Source: a virus. From it: DNA of 30,756 nt. The stretch's first letter is position 1. The number at the start of each line of letters is the position of its first letter. The DNA is taken from positions 1 to 30,756 of the IMG/VR virus record IMGVR_UViG_3300009285_001485. One strand, given 5' to 3'. Made by a program: the position numbers and the translations under genes. Of this stretch, positions 2,189 through 30,756 are shown in pieces. The notes beneath the pieces are model-generated. The model was given only the letters and a program-made list of their open reading frames with translations. It ran no database searches and was not told the origin of the DNA.

Positions 2189-4516
2189 TTATCTAGGGGG
2201 AAATGCTATGCCACTCAATGTTCTGCCGACCAACGGGATTTTACCCAGTCCTCGTTTTAGCATGGGGATGGGGTTGCCCCTTAACATAGTAGATAAATCA
2301 TTTACTAAATTACCAACATCTTGTGCGATTGGTCCAGCTATAAATCCTAATGTTTGTCCGTACACGCTCGACTGCCAGAGGTCATAAAATAGTCCGAATC
2401 CGCCCAGTGCGGCTACATTATCGACCAGTCTTTCTACTCCCATTGGGCGGGCCTTACCAAATAGGTTTTGTCCCTTCAATAGAGTACGTATGTCTTGTGC
2501 GAATTCCCCCCCTACACCCGGTGATGCCAAAATATATATCAAGTTGGCCGGATTATCCTTAACGGCCTTACGCAATAAACGGCTATGCCCAAAAATAAAC
2601 GTCTTGAACTGGAAAACCAACTTCCCCTCTGGCGAACTGGCCCATAGTGGGACATCAATCACCCTTCCCCTTAACTGTGTTTCGTCGGAAATGGTTTTTC
2701 CGGCCCGCAGTAGGTCGTCTTCGGTTAAATATCCACGCCTTATTGCTTGGGGCAAGTCAAGGTTCAGTCGGTCTAATGCTTTGTAATATTGCGAGCCATC
2801 TATTTTGCCACCCCCAGATATGGTTTTGGATAGTTTAGCGAAGTTTTCTCGTGCGAATGCTTTTCCGGCTTGGGTAGCAACTATACGGTTAAATTCTTCG
2901 CTAGCAGTAAACCCAGACGCCCTTAAGGCTTTGACCGTCAAATTGGACAAGTCCATACCACTGCTCAACATTTCTTGTCTAAAGGCATTCATGAGGGCAC
3001 CCGCCCGAACAGCATATTCTCTCGCCCCGGGCCCAGCTGCCACCTTAAGACCCGTTATCAATGAACGTATATTTGCTCGTAGCGGAATAGACAAAATCTG
3101 GGTTGAGTTCAATACGGCCGTAAGCGGGTTGGCAATCCCCGTTATGGTTTCAAAGTTTGCCAAGGCCCGTGCAATGTTTTTGGTTGTTTGTCGATTGGAG
3201 AAATTTTCCAAACCAACTGCCCGCCTCCATACTTCCTTGGCGTAGTACCGATCTCCCCCCTCCAGTTCAATATTCTTTAATAGCTGTTTAGCAATTTGGT
3301 CTCGATTGCCAAATTCTGATATTTCGGCCAACTTGAACCTAGCCCCCTTATAATATTTTTCAAGTGCATCAATGGTTTTTTCATATCCAGGCAAGTCCGA
3401 CTTTCGAGGGAGTTGGAGGTGACCGAATCTGGTTTCAACCCGCCCCCTCCTCAGGGTATCAATGAGGTCGTCTGCTTCGGCTATGGTCTGGGCCGTTCCA
3501 TCGTTAACCAGTTGTTGTGCTAGTTTGCCCTTACCATCAACTGTTGATATAGACTTAATAAATTCTTCGCCGTATATTCTGGGAAAGTAGTTCTTACGCG
3601 GTACAAAGGGTTGGCGCCCAGCGTCCGTCATAACTTCCACACCCGCCCTAACGGCTTGGTCGGCTAGGGTGTTAAGCTCTTGGCGCTCCATAGCCACCAG
3701 TTTTTGTACTAATTCGTTTTGTGGTGTGGCGGTACCCTCTAGTACGTCAACAAAGTTAAGCTGTTCTGCCGGAGATAATACTTTTTTATACTCTCGTAGT
3801 CTGTATGCATCTTCTCCGAATGACCGCTCTGCCTCAAAAGAGAGACGATTCAACCGTTCGATCAATTCATTGCCAGACTTACCCATAACTCGTACATTGG
3901 CATCAACACTGCTCAGACCCCGTTTAATTCCATCAAAAAAGGTTTCGGGGGCTCCATGAAAGTCTCCCAACGGTGGCAATGGCTGGGGAGCACCAAAACG
4001 AGGGGTGTATAGATTTTTAACATCATCAATCTTGATTGATTTAGTTTCGGCAATAACTTGTGTCGGGAAGCGTTTGCCGAAAAGTCCCAATTTCCCCAGA
4101 TTGCGCAATAATCCAACTTCTACTCCTGCCCCAACAAGGACATCTAGCGCTATGGCTAGACCACCTTCTATTGGAGTCTTAGCTTTTTGGTTAAGCACAT
4201 CGAACACTCCAACCATAGGAGAGTCTGGATTACCAATTTTGGCCAGTTCTTGTGCTGCCCCCCTGCCTAGTGCGGCGAACCCCGCACCCACGTTAGATAA
4301 CCGACCAGTGGGGAGATGCTCTAGGGTTCTTTCAGCTTCCCGTGCGGCTCCCCCGACCAGAGTGGACGGTAGCGATATGGTCTTGAGACCAATATCCAGT
4401 AGGCGTTCCCCCACTGCGGGTTTGAGAAATGGGTCGAGTGTACGAATAATCGACTGGCGTACTCTGCCCCCAGCCATGTCTCGCTTTTGTTTGAGTCGGT
4501 CTTGAAATACTCCCAT
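2189..4516 (-). CDS. Putative internal virion / DNA-ejection protein (775 aa)
   Basis: Encodes a 775-residue, mostly helical protein with an N-terminal basic segment, a G- and A-rich hydrophobic region (about 110-145), and a central R-K-N-Y-F-P-R-I-Y motif (about 309-317). A motif of this kind recurs in very large phage virion and polyvalent proteins. Several amphipathic or weakly hydrophobic stretches lie near the C-terminus (for example around 690-740). There are no enzyme signatures such as a lytic transglycosylase E-S/G-x-x pattern. Size, composition and position at the end of the morphogenesis operon, after adaptor, nozzle and fibre, match the ejection proteins of podoviruses such as T7 gp15/gp16. 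This is inferred from context and not from recognised homology. It starts 3 bp after the 402-aa gene. Confidence 0.55.
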   Translation of the reverse strand: MGVFQDRLKQKRDMAGGRVRQSIIRTLDPFLKPAVGERLLDIGLKTISLPSTLVGGAAREAERTLEHLPTGRLSNVGAGFAALGRGAAQELAKIGNPDSPMVGVFDVLNQKAKTPIEGGLAIALDVLVGAGVEVGLLRNLGKLGLFGKRFPTQVIAETKSIKIDDVKNLYTPRFGAPQPLPPLGDFHGAPETFFDGIKRGLSSVDANVRVMGKSGNELIERLNRLSFEAERSFGEDAYRLREYKKVLSPAEQLNFVDVLEGTATPQNELVQKLVAMERQELNTLADQAVRAGVEVMTDAGRQPFVPRKNYFPRIYGEEFIKSISTVDGKGKLAQQLVNDGTAQTIAEADDLIDTLRRGRVETRFGHLQLPRKSDLPGYEKTIDALEKYYKGARFKLAEISEFGNRDQIAKQLLKNIELEGGDRYYAKEVWRRAVGLENFSNRQTTKNIARALANFETITGIANPLTAVLNSTQILSIPLRANIRSLITGLKVAAGPGAREYAVRAGALMNAFRQEMLSSGMDLSNLTVKALRASGFTASEEFNRIVATQAGKAFARENFAKLSKTISGGGKIDGSQYYKALDRLNLDLPQAIRRGYLTEDDLLRAGKTISDETQLRGRVIDVPLWASSPEGKLVFQFKTFIFGHSRLLRKAVKDNPANLIYILASPGVGGEFAQDIRTLLKGQNLFGKARPMGVERLVDNVAALGGFGLFYDLWQSSVYGQTLGFIAGPIAQDVGNLVNDLSTMLRGNPIPMLKRGLGKIPLVGRTLSGIAFPPR

Positions 4517-22485: not shown

Positions 22486-24855
22486 CTAGTAAGTAGTTGA
22501 TGAATATTCAAAATCCTCATCCATGCTTTTGATTTTTTCTGTTTGCCTACTCTTCTCGGCTTTATTGGGAAATCGGCGAGACATCACTCCAAACCGTAAA
22601 GCGTCTACGGCATGGTCTTCTCCTCTAGCGTCTAAATCCTCTTTGAACTTCCCTCCAAACTCTTGTCCCATGCCTATATCGGTGGCATAGATTTGGTTCG
22701 GAAGCGTTCTAATCAAGTTGTAACAATTAGCAAAGAACTTAATCTTGGGTTCAACGATAAACTCTCCCCGATTATCTTTCTGCCAGTGTAGGTATTCCTT
22801 CACTACGCTCCAGCCAGTCATCCTGTCGGAATTGGCCGGAGTGCATATAAGACCAGACCTACGCATAATGTCCGCCGGTGATTCCGCTCCAGCTGATTTA
22901 TTGAAAGCATCCTTGCCGATTACCGAATACTTCTCCAAACCATCGGACATTTCTATGACGGCTTTGGCGTGTTCTTCGGCGGTTCTGGAAACCAGTTGAC
23001 TGTCTGGTTCTGGGGGGTAGTATTCTTTGTAAACGATTAAATTCTTGTCTAGGTCAACCGCGAACCAAAGACATGCTAATGGTGCGGTTCTGCCATAATC
23101 AATCGCCCTAAACCTTACCCAGTCATTGGGAATATCAAAAGGATGAATAACATGGATTTCCGGGTGCCAATCCTCAAAAAACTGTCCCTCGAATACATCC
23201 CAATTCCCGTCCAGAAGTGCCTTCTTCTTATTGGGTGGCATATTCTCCAGACGCTTGACGTAGTCGGGGTCATTCTGCATCATCGTCAGGTTATCCTTCA
23301 GTTTGGCGGGGATAAATTGACGAGTCAGACCACTGGGTTGGTCAGTATAGACACTGAAAGGTTCTTTGCCATCAATAAACCGCTTTTTCAAAAAGTCGTG
23401 CCCAACATTGCCAGGGTTGCTGGCGGCTCGAACATACTTCTTGATTAACTTATCGGGAGTACGATTACGAGTCAGGAGATATTGATACTGGAATGGGGTA
23501 AAATGACTCGCTTCATCAAAGCCGATATAAGCAAATTCCGAGGACTGTCCTGTCCACATCACCCGATTCCGATAACGTATTAAAATACTGTGATAGGGTT
23601 CCACCGTCACACAATGCACCCTGCCCTTATGCGCTTGTACGGTAGTGGCACGACAGGCGGTATCGTGGGGTTTCCGCCAAAGTCCTATGTGGTACCTCCC
23701 CGCAAACTCCCCCTCGTTTTGCAAACTACACGATGGGCGATAACCCAGCTTAATCCCCAACTCATAGATATCATCTTTTAGGTGGGGAGAATTGGTTACA
23801 TACACTGCCCTTTCGGCATATCGGTGCCATGTGCCGTCTCCTTCTATCAGAGCGTTGAAAAGAAGTTCGAGGTATTCTGGGGGTAGGTTTAAGTATTCGC
23901 GAGGGATATATTTGTCATGGCTCTTACCCAGTCGCGCCAACCACCTGGCTATATGAATAGACGCGAATGAAAACCCAGTATCATTTATCCAATAGTTTAC
24001 CCCTAAGCGGTTCAGGACATTCTTAACCAGTCGCCGACCACGCTTTTTCTGTTGAGCGATGTTAATCATCCATCGCCCGTTGTTAATATCCACACATCCT
24101 TCTGAAATATACCACCCCAGAAACTCTAACCAATCATCTAAATTAAAAACATAGTTATGCGTATTACCGCTACCACCCCGGAACTCTATTGTTTTTTTCT
24201 TGGGTGGTACCCCGCGCCAACCGCTAGTTTGAGGAAATTGAGCCGTAGAGGGCAGAAACCGTGCTTCAACCCGCCTAAAAGAATGTGGTTTGCGAACCGT
24301 AGTAATGAGCATTTCATGGTTGGGCGTTACGGCAAACGACACCCCGTTCTGTTGATGTGCAGTTATCAACTGACCATCAAAATCATAAGCCCAAACCCTA
24401 GTGGCTGGTTGATACTCCATCATGCGAGTATCGGGATTCAGTGTTGCAACCGGCTGTCCTATTCGCACCTGCGCAACAGGAACAAAACCATCTTTAGTCA
24501 GAATTTCCGTATCGGGGTGAAAGCACTGAAATTTATATACGTCCTCGTCGGTGGCACAATAACCAAATTGAATAATTGCCCCAGATGGAAAAGTCCAAGT
24601 ATGCTTGGTTGAATTATAATCGCCCCCGAGCGAAGGATATAGTTCGTGAGACCTGCGAATTAAAGACATCTCCAATTCAGGAAACGTCCTACGCAGGAGT
24701 AGGGCTCTGTATTTTGGCTTATCGATCTGGCGGAGAGCTTCAACCAATAATGAGTCGCTCTTCCCCCCGCCTAATGCTCCGCCATAAAAAACCTCGTAAG
24801 CCGAACTTTTATGAAACTTCGTCTGGGGACCTGGGTGTGGTTTCCAAATCTCCAA
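22486..24855 (-). CDS. terL: Large terminase subunit interrupted by an intein (789 aa)
   Basis: Encodes 789 residues, of which 462 are terminase and 327 are an intein. The ATPase has Walker A G-G-A-L-G-G-G-K-S (25-33) and Walker B Y-I-G-F-D-E (443-448). The nuclease domain has the RNase H-like acidic residues A-I-D-Y-G (D586), G-K-D-A (D649) and H-A-V-D-A-L-R (D751). The intein is inserted between the motifs, 10 residues before the Walker B aspartate. It would package DNA into the prohead and cut at the ends. The start codon is TTG; an in-frame stop lies three codons upstream and no earlier start exists. It overlaps the metallopeptidase-like gene by 47 bp, so translation may depend on the upstream gene. 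Confidence 0.93.
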   Translation of the reverse strand: MEIWKPHPGPQTKFHKSSAYEVFYGGALGGGKSDSLLVEALRQIDKPKYRALLLRRTFPELEMSLIRRSHELYPSLGGDYNSTKHTWTFPSGAIIQFGYCATDEDVYKFQCFHPDTEILTKDGFVPVAQVRIGQPVATLNPDTRMMEYQPATRVWAYDFDGQLITAHQQNGVSFAVTPNHEMLITTVRKPHSFRRVEARFLPSTAQFPQTSGWRGVPPKKKTIEFRGGSGNTHNYVFNLDDWLEFLGWYISEGCVDINNGRWMINIAQQKKRGRRLVKNVLNRLGVNYWINDTGFSFASIHIARWLARLGKSHDKYIPREYLNLPPEYLELLFNALIEGDGTWHRYAERAVYVTNSPHLKDDIYELGIKLGYRPSCSLQNEGEFAGRYHIGLWRKPHDTACRATTVQAHKGRVHCVTVEPYHSILIRYRNRVMWTGQSSEFAYIGFDEASHFTPFQYQYLLTRNRTPDKLIKKYVRAASNPGNVGHDFLKKRFIDGKEPFSVYTDQPSGLTRQFIPAKLKDNLTMMQNDPDYVKRLENMPPNKKKALLDGNWDVFEGQFFEDWHPEIHVIHPFDIPNDWVRFRAIDYGRTAPLACLWFAVDLDKNLIVYKEYYPPEPDSQLVSRTAEEHAKAVIEMSDGLEKYSVIGKDAFNKSAGAESPADIMRRSGLICTPANSDRMTGWSVVKEYLHWQKDNRGEFIVEPKIKFFANCYNLIRTLPNQIYATDIGMGQEFGGKFKEDLDARGEDHAVDALRFGVMSRRFPNKAEKSRQTEKIKSMDEDFEYSSTTY
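23545..24525 (-). mobile_element. LAGLIDADG intein in the large terminase
   Basis: Residues 111-437 of the terminase frame. The first residue is Cys (C-F-H-P-D-T-E-I-L-T, block A). The block B motif is T-P-N-H (177-180). Two dodecapeptide motifs, L-G-W-Y-I-S-E-G (246-253) and L-F-N-A-L-I-E-G-D-G (332-341), mark a DOD/LAGLIDADG homing endonuclease. Block F is V-H-C-V-T-V-E (413-419), and the end is W-T-G-Q followed by Ser+1. The joined extein reads Y-K-F-Q then S-S-E-F, which restores an ordinary terminase. The C-terminal residue is Gln in place of the usual Asn, and the residue before it is Gly, not His. Both are known but less common variants. Confidence 0.92.
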
Positions 24856-28176: not shown

Positions 28177-28464
28177 TTATATAACTGTCAGTTCTGATAT
28201 TAAAATAATGTGAGATTCGGTAGGGTTGCCTACTCCGTCCGGGATTTGTGCGATAGGAATCGTGGCGGACCCATCTAAAGTAGCTAATCCTCCCGCCACC
28301 CCTTTCATTGCCTCTACGACAGCAGTCGTATTTATTTCTCGCTCTATCCATTCGCCACCATTGTCTACGGTGGAGAGTTTTTCAGTTTCTGGGTCATAGT
28401 AAAACTCACGCTGGTTCGGAACGGTTGGTCGTGTACCCCTAAATAGAATTATCTGTTCTGGCAT
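28177..28464 (-). CDS. Small fibre-type structural protein (95 aa)
   Basis: Encodes 95 residues. The N-terminus (L-F-R-G-T-R-P-T-V-P-N-Q-R-E-F-Y-Y-D) resembles phage proteins that begin fibres. The middle G-G-L-A-T-L-D-G-S-A-T-I-P-I-A-Q-I-P is a classic fibre shaft motif (A-x-L-D-x-x-G/T-x-I-P-x-x-Q-I/L-P). The length is short for a complete fibre, so it may be an anchor or hinge that works with the next proteins. No strong Shine-Dalgarno. It is the first gene after the non-coding region. Confidence 0.55.
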   Translation of the reverse strand: MPEQIILFRGTRPTVPNQREFYYDPETEKLSTVDNGGEWIEREINTTAVVEAMKGVAGGLATLDGSATIPIAQIPDGVGNPTESHIILISELTVI

Positions 28465-28548
28465 TGATTTTTCTCATTGGTTTTTCTGATTTTTTATTTT
28501 TTCCGACTAATCAATACGGAGTTAGGTACTTAAGGGGGTATATACTCT

Positions 28549-28577
28549 ACTACAACATAAATAACTTATTTTGTCAA
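28549..28577 (-). promoter_or_regulatory. Possible second promoter for the fibre genes (P4b)
   Basis: Minus strand TTGACA (28572-28577), a 17-bp spacer, TGT and TGTAGT (28549-28554; 4 of 6 matches). It has the same CTTGACAA context as the other promoters. The -10 is weak, so confidence is moderate. Confidence 0.5.
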
Positions 28578-28836
28578 GTGTCTAGGGGCGTCAATCTATG
28601 TTTGTCTATTTTTTCGAGTTTTTTGTCTTTTTTAATTTTTTAGACCGATATTAGTGAAATAGGGAGGATTCGGGGTATGGGTAGGAAGAGGGGAAGGAAG
28701 GGAGGTTTTGGGGGGACATACATAAAAAACCGCCAGATGGAACGTTCGGGATATATGGGGCCGCCGGTCAACCGATTACCATATAATCCGCTCCTAGATT
28801 ATTAAATACCCCTCCCAACACATACCCCACCTATTC

Positions 28837-28865
28837 AGTATAACATATTTATAGGGCTTTGTCAA
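28837..28865 (-). promoter_or_regulatory. Sigma70 extended -10 promoter (P4)
   Basis: Minus strand TTGACA (28860-28865), a 17-bp spacer, TGT and TATACT (28837-28842). It lies just after the HNH gene and would give a leader of about 365 bases before the first fibre-type gene at 28464. Confidence 0.9.
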
Positions 28866-28872
28866 GTGCCAC

Positions 28873-29187
28873 CTACGCCAATCCACAATTAACACTTAAA
28901 CGATTACACGACCTACACACTATCCTAATGTCATACAGAGTACAGCCGTCATACTTGGTATGGTGAAGTTCGGTAATCCCCCTATGGCCGCATAACTGAC
29001 ACATACTTCTGTCCCACCCCCAGTACCTAAATATCGCCCAAATATACCTATCGATGTGTTGATCGCCGTCTATGGGTTGTCGCATACCTATATTATACCT
29101 CAACCCCCCAAAATCGCTCCTGACGCACTGTAGAACCCCTACAAGCCCCTCTAGGCGGTTCACAGCTTGAGGGATGGGAACTACCAC
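28873..29187 (-). CDS. HNH-type endonuclease (up to 104 aa)
   Basis: The zinc-ribbon HNH core is visible: C-Q-L-C (C63, C66), T-E-L-H-H (H75, H76) and V-C-R-S-C-N-R-L (C91, C94). The longest frame starts at GTG 29187 (104 aa). An internal ATG at 29085 would give 70 aa and still hold the full motif, so the start is uncertain. HNH nucleases beside terminase genes assist terminase cleavage in some cos-type phages such as HK97. Here it lies 40 bp after the TerS-like gene, so that role is plausible. A free homing endonuclease is the alternative. Confidence 0.75.
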   Translation of the reverse strand: MVVPIPQAVNRLEGLVGVLQCVRSDFGGLRYNIGMRQPIDGDQHIDRYIWAIFRYWGWDRSMCQLCGHRGITELHHTKYDGCTLYDIRIVCRSCNRLSVNCGLA

Positions 29188-29227
29188 CCCGGTGTCTATC
29201 GTGCGTTCTAGGGGCTGTGGATGGCCT

Positions 29228-29644
29228 TTAGTCCTGTGGCGGTAGGAATATCCTTATCCCCTCACCCTTGCCGTCTCCCAACGGTTCAGCTTCTACCTTG
29301 TACTTCTGATTACGCCTAGCGAGCCAAAACTTGCGCGCCTGAAAATTGGCTTCCGCACTCAAGTCCTTCTCTATCATAAGCCGCTCCACCTGATCGGCTA
29401 CTTCGGCATCTAGGGCCTTCAAATCTGCATCAAACTCTGGGTACTTGTTTTTCCAATTATACGCTGTCTGAGCGGATATTCCCGTTAATTCAGCCGCCCA
29501 CGAAAGCACCCCGTAGGCCTTAATATAGTTCTGCAAAAAGAGGGGAGCGGACTTAATATACCCCCCGCTTAACTCCGATGGCTCCCTTACTGGTTCCCCG
29601 GATACTGGGTTGTCTGGTTGTGTGATAGTTGGTGTATCGGACAT
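29228..29644 (-). CDS. Terminase small subunit-like HTH protein (138 aa)
   Basis: Encodes 138 residues. After a P-, S- and E-rich N-terminus, residues about 35-75 form a helix-turn-helix (F-L-Q-N-Y, then V-L-S-W-A-A-E-L-T-G-I-S-A-Q-T-A-Y-N-W-K, then Y-P-E-F). A coiled region (76-100) follows, then A-R-K-F-W-L-A-R-R-N-Q-K-Y-K-V-E-A-E (about 103-120). This matches small terminase subunits of the type with an N-terminal HTH and a short C-terminal tail. It would recognise the packaging site. Unusually, it is separated from the large subunit by about 4.4 kb. It is transcribed from a perfect promoter, through a leader with tandem repeats. Confidence 0.72.
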   Translation of the reverse strand: MSDTPTITQPDNPVSGEPVREPSELSGGYIKSAPLFLQNYIKAYGVLSWAAELTGISAQTAYNWKNKYPEFDADLKALDAEVADQVERLMIEKDLSAEANFQARKFWLARRNQKYKVEAEPLGDGKGEGIRIFLPPQD

Positions 29645-29710
29645 AGGATGAAATCTTACCTCTTATCCCCGCTCAAACGCCGCGTGGCTCTTTTTTCTTA
29701 TATGCAGCCA

Positions 29711-29770
29711 CAGACGGACTGGATGCAACTTTATAAGCTGCAGACGGACATGATTTAACTTTATAAACTT
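29711..29770. repeat. 30-bp tandem repeat, two copies, in the terminase leader
   Basis: Two directly adjacent copies of 30 bp (29711-29740 and 29741-29770), 24 of 30 positions identical. Both begin CAGACGGAC and contain AACTTTATAA. The unit length is close to three helical turns, so both copies would face the same side of the DNA. The pair lies between the leftward promoter P5 and the TerS-like gene. It could be an operator or a terminase-binding site. Confidence 0.8.
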
Positions 29771-29809
29771 GAGCAAAATATCTGCTAGTCGGTGGGGATA
29801 ACTTTGTGC

Positions 29810-29838
29810 ATTATAACACGAAACGACCAATCTGTCAA
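29810..29838 (-). promoter_or_regulatory. Consensus sigma70 extended -10 promoter (P5), leftward
   Basis: Minus strand TTGACA (29833-29838), a 17-bp spacer, TGT and TATAAT (29810-29815), a full consensus. It is divergent from P6, with 35 bp between the two -35 boxes. It drives the TerS-like and HNH genes through a leader of about 160 bases. Confidence 0.93.
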
Positions 29839-29873
29839 ATCTATCAGGTTGAAAAAATCTTTGCAAGTTATGG

Positions 29874-29902
29874 TTGACACAATAAATATAGTGTGATACA
29901 CT
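29874..29902 (+). promoter_or_regulatory. Sigma70 extended -10 promoter (P6), rightward
   Basis: Plus strand TTGACA (29874-29879), a 17-bp spacer, TGA and TACACT (29897-29902). It is the only rightward promoter found and should drive the 86-aa gene and the ArdA-like gene. Confidence 0.85.
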
Positions 29903-29965
29903 TACCTTGCGATGGGGATAAGTGGTATTTTGACAACTAGGAGATAGGACTAATCAAAAACTATT

Positions 29966-30226
29966 ATGAAAATCATAATCGAAACCGAACAACCGATTAT
30001 CGGTTGGTGGGACGGTGGGGCAAAAAGTCGCTTTGAGTTCGAGCCAGAATACACCAAATCCGATGACGAGGGCGAATATATCAAGTGGGGTAGTTGGTCG
30101 GCAAATTACTGGTTTCATACCAGCCAGGGCAAAACCGATAAGCTATCCGCTATGTATGCCATCAGACATCTAAAGGCGGTATTCAAGCCAAAAACAACCT
30201 ATAAAATCTATTCAGTCATCGACTAA
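29966..30226 (+). CDS. Orphan early-type protein of unknown function (86 aa)
   Basis: Encodes 86 residues, soluble, with an unusual tryptophan and aromatic content (G-W-W-D-G-G, then W-G-S-W-S-A-N-Y-W-F-H), balanced charges and a basic C-terminal half (A-I-R-H-L-K-A-V-F-K-P-K). No family is recognised and no catalytic motif is evident. It is the first gene after the rightward promoter and precedes an ArdA-like antirestriction gene, so an early host-takeover or defence-evasion role is possible. It is enclosed by a 16-bp inverted repeat. There is no good ribosome site at normal spacing. Confidence 0.6.
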   Translation: MKIIIETEQPIIGWWDGGAKSRFEFEPEYTKSDDEGEYIKWGSWSANYWFHTSQGKTDKLSAMYAIRHLKAVFKPKTTYKIYSVID

Positions 30227-30230
30227 CTAT

Positions 30231-30268
30231 CAAGGGGGCTAGTCGTAGTCCCTTGATTAGGACTAGCC
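30231..30268 (+). promoter_or_regulatory. Overlapping alternative hairpins after the 86-aa gene
   Basis: Three mutually exclusive stems are possible: CAAGGG/CCCTTG (30231-30236 with 30250-30255), GGCTAGTC/GACTAGCC (30237-30244 with 30261-30268) and TAGTCC/GGACTA (30246-30251 with 30260-30265). No long U-tract follows. The overlap of stems resembles an attenuator or RNA switch more than a plain terminator. Confidence 0.5.
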
Positions 30269-30330
30269 AAATTATAACAATCAAACCTATCTCCTAGTTG
30301 TTAGGGTATCAAACCCTTATAAAAATAATC

Positions 30331-30358
30331 AGCTAAAAGTATTATTTACTTTTGGCGG
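30331..30358 (+). promoter_or_regulatory. Ribosome-site hairpin of the ArdA-like gene
   Basis: AAAAGTA and TACTTTT (7 bp, loop of 5 bases, about 30336-30354) form a hairpin immediately before the GGCGGAGAGGG ribosome site of the ArdA-like gene. It may influence initiation or mark the processed 5' end. AGGGT/ACCCT (about 30304-30318) forms another small hairpin upstream. Confidence 0.35.
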
Positions 30359-30369
30359 AGAGGGAAAAA

Positions 30370-30666
30370 ATGACAGAAGTAAAAAGCAAAGCAGAACAGA
30401 TGAGCGAAAAAAACTCGCTAGACGAGGAAGTCAATCAGGCGTATATCGACCTAGTGGGCGAGGAATACGCAACGGCTGAAGGAGCAGAGGAAGCATATCA
30501 GGGTAAATATGAATCTGACGAAGATTTTACCCAACAACTGCTTGAAGATACAGGAGATATTCCTAAAGATTTACCCGCCTATGTTAATATCGACTGGGAG
30601 GGTACGGCTAGGGATATTATGATGGACTACGGAGAGGACAGCGGATACTATTTCCGCAATCTTTAA
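30370..30666 (+). CDS. ArdA-like antirestriction protein, short form (98 aa)
   Basis: The ATG at 30370 has a GGAGAGGG ribosome site (a TTG at 30352 is rejected). The product is very acidic: 26 D/E against 7 K/R. The segment E-E-A-Y-Q-G-K-Y-E-S-D-E-D-F (40-53) and the C-terminal I-D-W-E-G-T-A-R-D-I-M-M-D-Y (74-87), then G-Y-Y-F-R-N-L, are the conserved signature of ArdA-family DNA mimics, which block type I restriction enzymes. It is shorter than classical ArdA (about 165 aa), lacking most of the N-terminal domain. It is likely expressed early to protect entering DNA. Confidence 0.82.
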   Translation: MTEVKSKAEQMSEKNSLDEEVNQAYIDLVGEEYATAEGAEEAYQGKYESDEDFTQQLLEDTGDIPKDLPAYVNIDWEGTARDIMMDYGEDSGYYFRNL

Positions 30667-30698
30667 CAATCGGCACTCCTACCCTGTCCGAGAGGTCA

Positions 30699-30756
30699 AT
30701 GAAGCCATTATGGGAGAGTATTTTTACTATCTCGGCAAAAATCTGGGGGCGACGCT
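30699..30756 (+). CDS. Start of a further rightward gene, cut by the window edge
   Basis: An ATG at 30699 lies 3 bases after GAGAGG and opens a frame that is still open at the end (M-K-P-L-W-E-S-I-F). Another frame over the same bases (N-E-A-I-M-G-E-Y-F-Y-Y-L-G-K-N) is also open and looks protein-like, so which one is real cannot be decided from this fragment. Confidence 0.35.
   Translation, partial: MKPLWESIFTISAKIWGRR

Follow-up and report, generated by a model that had tools for sequence, protein, structure and literature searches.

In this study, we found that the 5' leader of the first early transcript of an uncultured phage is predicted to pair with the intercistronic region behind its first gene through 26 unbroken pairs. 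The predicted stem encloses a gene for an 86-aa orphan protein and leaves the second gene, for an ArdA-like antirestriction protein, outside. This fold-back stem probably limits or cuts the early message. All positions refer to the window, which is the whole stretch of 30,756 nt of DNA that was analysed.

Materials and Methods

The repeat, its extension to 26 pairs, its strand asymmetry, the placement of the promoter and the predicted stability were computed. Our own scripts were used for the statistics and the folding scans (Markov simulation, control phages, codon usage, pair probabilities, repeat extension, growing transcripts and arm recurrence). RNA energies were predicted with ViennaRNA at 37 C and leave out cotranscriptional kinetics and ribosomes. 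Relatives were sought in viral contigs with the 86-aa protein, TerS, portal, capsid and the ArdA-like protein, and TerS and portal were also searched in phage records.

Results

The preliminary description had reported a perfect 16-bp inverted repeat with arms 337 bp apart, and the sequence confirmed it. The left arm, ACAACTAGGAGATAGG (29933-29948), and the right arm, CCTATCTCCTAGTTGT (30286-30301), are 16 nt long and 100% complementary, with 337 nt between them. This is the longest perfect inverted repeat of the window and the sole one of at least 12 bp with arms at most 500 bp apart; the runner-up has 11 bp. The repeat had been called unexpected by chance. Simulation agreed, as only 1 of 150 windows generated as order-2 Markov sequences contained a perfect inverted repeat of at least 16 bp inside 500 bp, but 0.9 Mb of real phage control DNA held 15 perfect inverted repeats of at least 16 bp at 20-500 bp. 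Because the window was chosen for that very repeat, a selection that inflates the significance figures, the bare 16-bp repeat is uncommon but neither unique nor by itself remarkable. Exact copies of the arm sequence turned up only in unrelated pelagiphage contigs of one lineage, which repeat a 19-mer at the left arm (29932-29950). There it spans the tail of a gene together with the SD of the gene that follows, and this recurrence is evidently due to chance. The exact right-arm sequence was absent from the genome contigs searched.

When G-U pairs were counted, the plus-strand RNA showed 26 unbroken pairs, 29923-29948 with 30286-30311, of which the 16-bp repeat is the core (Table 1). The ten-position outward extension contains five G-U wobbles in the plus transcript. 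The left arm and the reverse complement of the right arm differ at 5 of the outer ten positions; all five differences are transitions, and all turn a Watson-Crick pair into G-U on the plus RNA and into A-C on the minus strand. The arm differences may have arisen after an inverted duplication. The chance of ten further contiguous pairs, from 16 to 26, was about 4.5e-5 at the local composition, and 4 of 702 control repeats extended by 10 or more on either strand. The next-longest RNA stem in the window has 18 contiguous pairs, against 26 here, and 1.8 Mb of strands from other phages yielded one longer stem and three with 25 pairs. The strand-asymmetric wobbles point to selection on the plus-strand RNA, or at least make a function at the DNA level less likely.

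Table 1. Positions of the stem, genes and signals of the early region in the window.
Feature	Position	Strand	Basis and remarks
Sigma-70 promoter, perfect 12/12 consensus, TG before -10, divergent, serves the terminase side	29838-29810	-	Consensus scan
Promoter P+, sigma-70-like: TTGACA, 17 nt, TACACT, TG preceding the second hexamer	29874-29902	+	Consensus scan, 10/12
Leader AUGGGG, possible outward extension of the stem with 30314-30320 CCCUUAU	29912-29917	+	Pair probabilities 0.26-0.57
Left arm, 26-pair RNA stem	29923-29948	+	Repeat search, RNA folding, pair probabilities; contains the perfect arm 29933-29948
AGGAG within the left arm, 22 nt ahead of ATG (29966)	29939-29943	+	Sequence; duplex scan -7.3 kcal/mol at spacing 21
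7-bp hairpin AUUAUGA-AAA-UCAUAAU, which contains the start codon (AUG) of the 86-aa gene	29962-29978	+	RNA folding, -3.0 kcal/mol
86-aa orphan ORF, enclosed by the stem	29966-30226	+	Codon usage like phage genes, z 3.2 vs shuffles; RNA structure z -1.3
Hairpin A, AUCAAGGG.../CCCUUGAU, excluded when hairpin B forms	30229-30258	+	RNA folding, -13.9 kcal/mol
Hairpin B, 13 pairs	30237-30268 (to 30270)	+	RNA folding, about -20.5 to -20.8 kcal/mol, z -4.35
Right arm, 26-pair RNA stem	30286-30311	+	Same basis as the left arm; contains the perfect arm 30286-30301
Hairpin just ahead of the downstream SD, 10-bp stem	30332-30356	+	RNA folding; 30329-30360 z -6.6
GGAGAGGG, well-placed SD of the ArdA-like gene	30357-30364	+	SD duplex scan, RNA folding
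Second gene of the operon, an ArdA-like antirestriction ORF of 98 aa lying outside the stem	30370-30666	+	Pfam PF07275 E 2.1e-8; PHROGs 36653, 14321

The stem was predicted with a pair probability of about 1.0 and a duplex energy of -37.9 kcal/mol. The 462-nt segment of leader, ORF and intergenic region gave a folding z of -7.7, and this signal is carried by the non-coding arms, the 86-aa ORF alone giving z -1.3. The Rfam 15 models gave no hit that reached gathering score anywhere in the window, nor one at E up to 1 in 28400-30756. The stem is known from one sequence, and no relative that could confirm it was found in the collections searched.

The promoter spacing places the likely start of the early transcript near 29909, about 14 nt ahead of the stem. 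Around the two divergent promoters lie three copies of a GGGGATAA motif (29790-29801, 29910-29921 and 29663-29670), which suggests operators or RNA elements. In the minus-strand leader, the 5'-end UUAUCCCC is predicted to pair with GGGGAUAA just ahead of the SD of the terminase small subunit, and two tandem 30-bp repeats, 80% alike, occupy 29706-29765 of the leader of this operon.

The left arm contains an AGGAG that the preliminary description had noted as the only one near the start of the 86-aa gene and had proposed to be hidden when the transcript folds on itself. The motif is present, but it lies 22 nt from the ATG, outside normal SD spacing. In the folding of growing transcripts, the unpaired probability of AGGAG was 0.4-0.7 until 30298 was transcribed and 0 thereafter. 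The AUG is outside the stem, and its accessibility did not fall (about 0.3-0.5 before closure and 0.5 after). The fold-back itself is favoured, since the pairing reaches 26 pairs only on the plus transcript and is predicted with a probability of about 1. Hiding of the SD is doubtful, since the distance from AGGAG to the downstream ATG is too great, and translation may be indifferent to whether the motif is blocked.

The 86-aa product is charged and hydrophilic by sequence. No homologue of it was found in viral contigs, genome contigs, phage records, Pfam or PHROGs; its structure prediction was poor (pLDDT 55), and a fold search gave noise. Weak protelomerase matches (E 0.17) were dismissed. 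The idea of a large ornate ncRNA was also rejected, since the interior shows no unusual structure (z -1.3) and its codon usage is gene-like. A near relative of the phage was not found in the collections searched. TerL relatives did not exceed about 40% identity, and no other gene is shared between this phage and the fetched loci. In the large terminase gene (22486-24855, minus strand), an intein with a LAGLIDADG-like domain is present in frame (about residues 111-434), with matches to the profiles TIGR01445 (E 1.1e-6) and PF14528 (E 1e-5).

Overlapping hairpins had been described just inside the right arm. They are real in the prediction: hairpins A and B are mutually exclusive, and B is dominant. 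Hairpin B begins 10 nt past the stop codon of the 86-aa gene. The right arm is flanked by hairpin B and by the hairpin preceding the downstream SD. Hairpin B was considered as an intrinsic terminator and rejected because no U-run follows. When the left arm is unavailable, the right arm (CCU-A-UCUCC) is the predicted partner of GGAGAGGG.

The 98-aa ORF behind this SD shows similarity to the C-terminal region of ArdA antirestriction proteins. It has two relatives in viral contigs, with 73% identity over 59 aa and 39% identity, and neither the 86-aa gene nor the 26-pair stem was found beside either of them. The 73% relative (2869-3180 of a 106-kb viral contig) has another upstream gene, and a nearby ORF of that contig (2177-2653) is built of GNSASI-type repeats. 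A viral contig with an ArdA-like gene has a 30-pair RNA-level stem, 784-813 with 1327-1356, whose arms are 513 nt apart.

Discussion

We infer that this duplex also exists in the cell, where RNase III would cut it and translation would be affected, and that the 86-aa gene has an early pulse. The left arm would be made first and remain mostly unpaired during transcription of the gene, and the duplex would close once about 30298 has been transcribed. The closed duplex would most likely be an RNase III-type site of processing or decay, which parts the 86-aa message from the downstream message. It would also hinder further ribosome loading near the start of the 86-aa gene, leaving a brief early pulse. 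After cleavage, the two new ends could gain stability from hairpin B and from the hairpin that precedes the next SD. Trailing ribosomes might keep the arms of the stem apart. The predicted duplex of 26 bp is longer than the minimum RNase III target of about 22 nt (PMC5371410), its length is like that of pre-rRNA helices, and icaR mRNA provides a precedent. We therefore favour a duplex of leader and intercistronic region that acts as a processing or decay site and limits the 86-aa gene to a brief early pulse, and we put the chance that this reading is right at about even.

The same pairing might act without any cleavage: in the full-length mRNA, the right arm would be a remote anti-SD and silence the 86-aa gene, in the manner of the aapA and hok toxin mRNAs. 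The AGGAG of the left arm is fully paired after 30298 is transcribed, and an mRNA-inactivating 5'-3' long-distance interaction is known for aapA (PMC6733600). We consider this purely translational control unlikely, given the 22 nt between AGGAG and ATG and an AUG region that is no less open in the closed state; moreover, the 86-aa ORF is not a small hydrophobic toxin, and no antisense RNA was seen. A three-way switch, in which the right arm pairs with either the leader or the ArdA-like SD and the state of the leader decides translation of the antirestriction gene, appears distinctly unlikely. When the left arm was blocked or removed, the right arm paired with GGAGAGGG (P 0.6-0.96), and the intergenic region folded alone also showed pairing of the right arm with this SD. 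Any UCUCC, however, is able to pair with an SD, and in the leader-paired state the ArdA-like SD stays mostly paired (about 0.7), with CCCUU at 30314-30318. A clean on/off switch of ArdA is unsupported, because the predictions leave its SD mostly paired in both states. It would be a long shot to join these ideas, so that a pre-rRNA-like stalk times the cutting or shut-off of the first cistron, the right arm competes for the ArdA-like SD, and folding orders two early anti-host genes.

Chance could account for a repeat that was chosen because many windows were read for oddities. The simulated window with a comparable repeat, the similar repeats in control phages and the recurrence of the left-arm 19-mer in pelagiphages all speak for it. 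We hold it to be decidedly improbable, as neither the wobble-only extension to 26 pairs nor the position of the arms, which occupy the two non-coding gaps on either side of a single gene just past a promoter, played a part in choosing the window. The preliminary description had also offered an invertible or cassette-like segment. Perfect 16-bp inverted repeats, the proposed ends of such a mobile cassette, do border exactly one orphan gene, and the inner 16 positions are symmetric at the DNA level. Ten further positions, though, pair unbroken only as plus RNA, the leader of the 86-aa gene sits in one arm, no target-site duplication adjoins the arms, and no recombinase was recognised among the 16 ORFs scanned on this partial contig. 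The RNA-only pairing of the outer repeat speaks against the cassette, as does, within the scope of this partial contig, the lack of a recognised recombinase among those ORFs; we regard the cassette as very improbable. The post-transcriptional control device proposed at the outset is partly supported: an RNA fold-back is favoured over a DNA cassette, but the SD-hiding mechanism is weak.

If the favoured processing or decay duplex is correct, a single long RNA helix of the phage closes around a complete early cistron, an arrangement already familiar from pre-rRNA and from a small number of bacterial mRNAs. It would provide a simple means of timing early genes after infection. For uncultured phages, the strand-asymmetric wobble signature offers a cheap way to tell an RNA stem apart from an inverted repeat of the DNA.

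The layout of the predicted stem is unusual for a phage and resembles known bacterial mRNA fold-back controls. The early RNase III sites of T7 are local hairpins between genes, whereas the stem described here spans a gene. RNase III sites are listed for T7, T3 and lambda transcripts (PMC5371410), and these share with the present stem a phage transcript and a duplex between genes. The leader-trailer helices of bacterial pre-rRNA, with 25-40 bp (PMC10250234), are also long helices closed over an enclosed product, which RNase III frees by cutting; the phage stem differs in that it encloses an mRNA with an ORF (z -1.3) and not a structured RNA. In aapA/IsoA and hok/Sok, a 5'-3' fold-back likewise arises at a late stage of transcription and is able to block translation. 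The phage gene differs from these systems in the lack of a toxin-like peptide, in its unsuitable SD spacing and in the second gene after the right arm. For a type I toxin-antitoxin arrangement, no good antisense promoter was found over the 86-aa gene, where only 9/12 consensus matches occur, at chance level.

The icaR mRNA of Staphylococcus aureus, in which pairing of the 5'UTR with the 3'UTR prevents initiation and is a target of RNase III cleavage (PMC3868564), shows the same arrangement of sequence behind the ORF pairing with its own leader across the whole gene, and the paired leader has an SD-like motif in both. The stable pairing of leader and post-ORF sequence on which an icaR-type comparison turns is predicted here as well (26 pairs, P about 1.0, -37.9 kcal/mol). 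The duplex could also be an RNase III substrate, cleavage being a prediction in the case of the phage stem. The icaR pairing is centred on a 7-nt motif, covers the true SD and lies at the 3' end, whereas the phage stem has 26 unbroken pairs, is centred upstream of the AUG and lies in the middle of an operon. With these differences, icaR mRNA is the best analogue of the phage fold-back stem.
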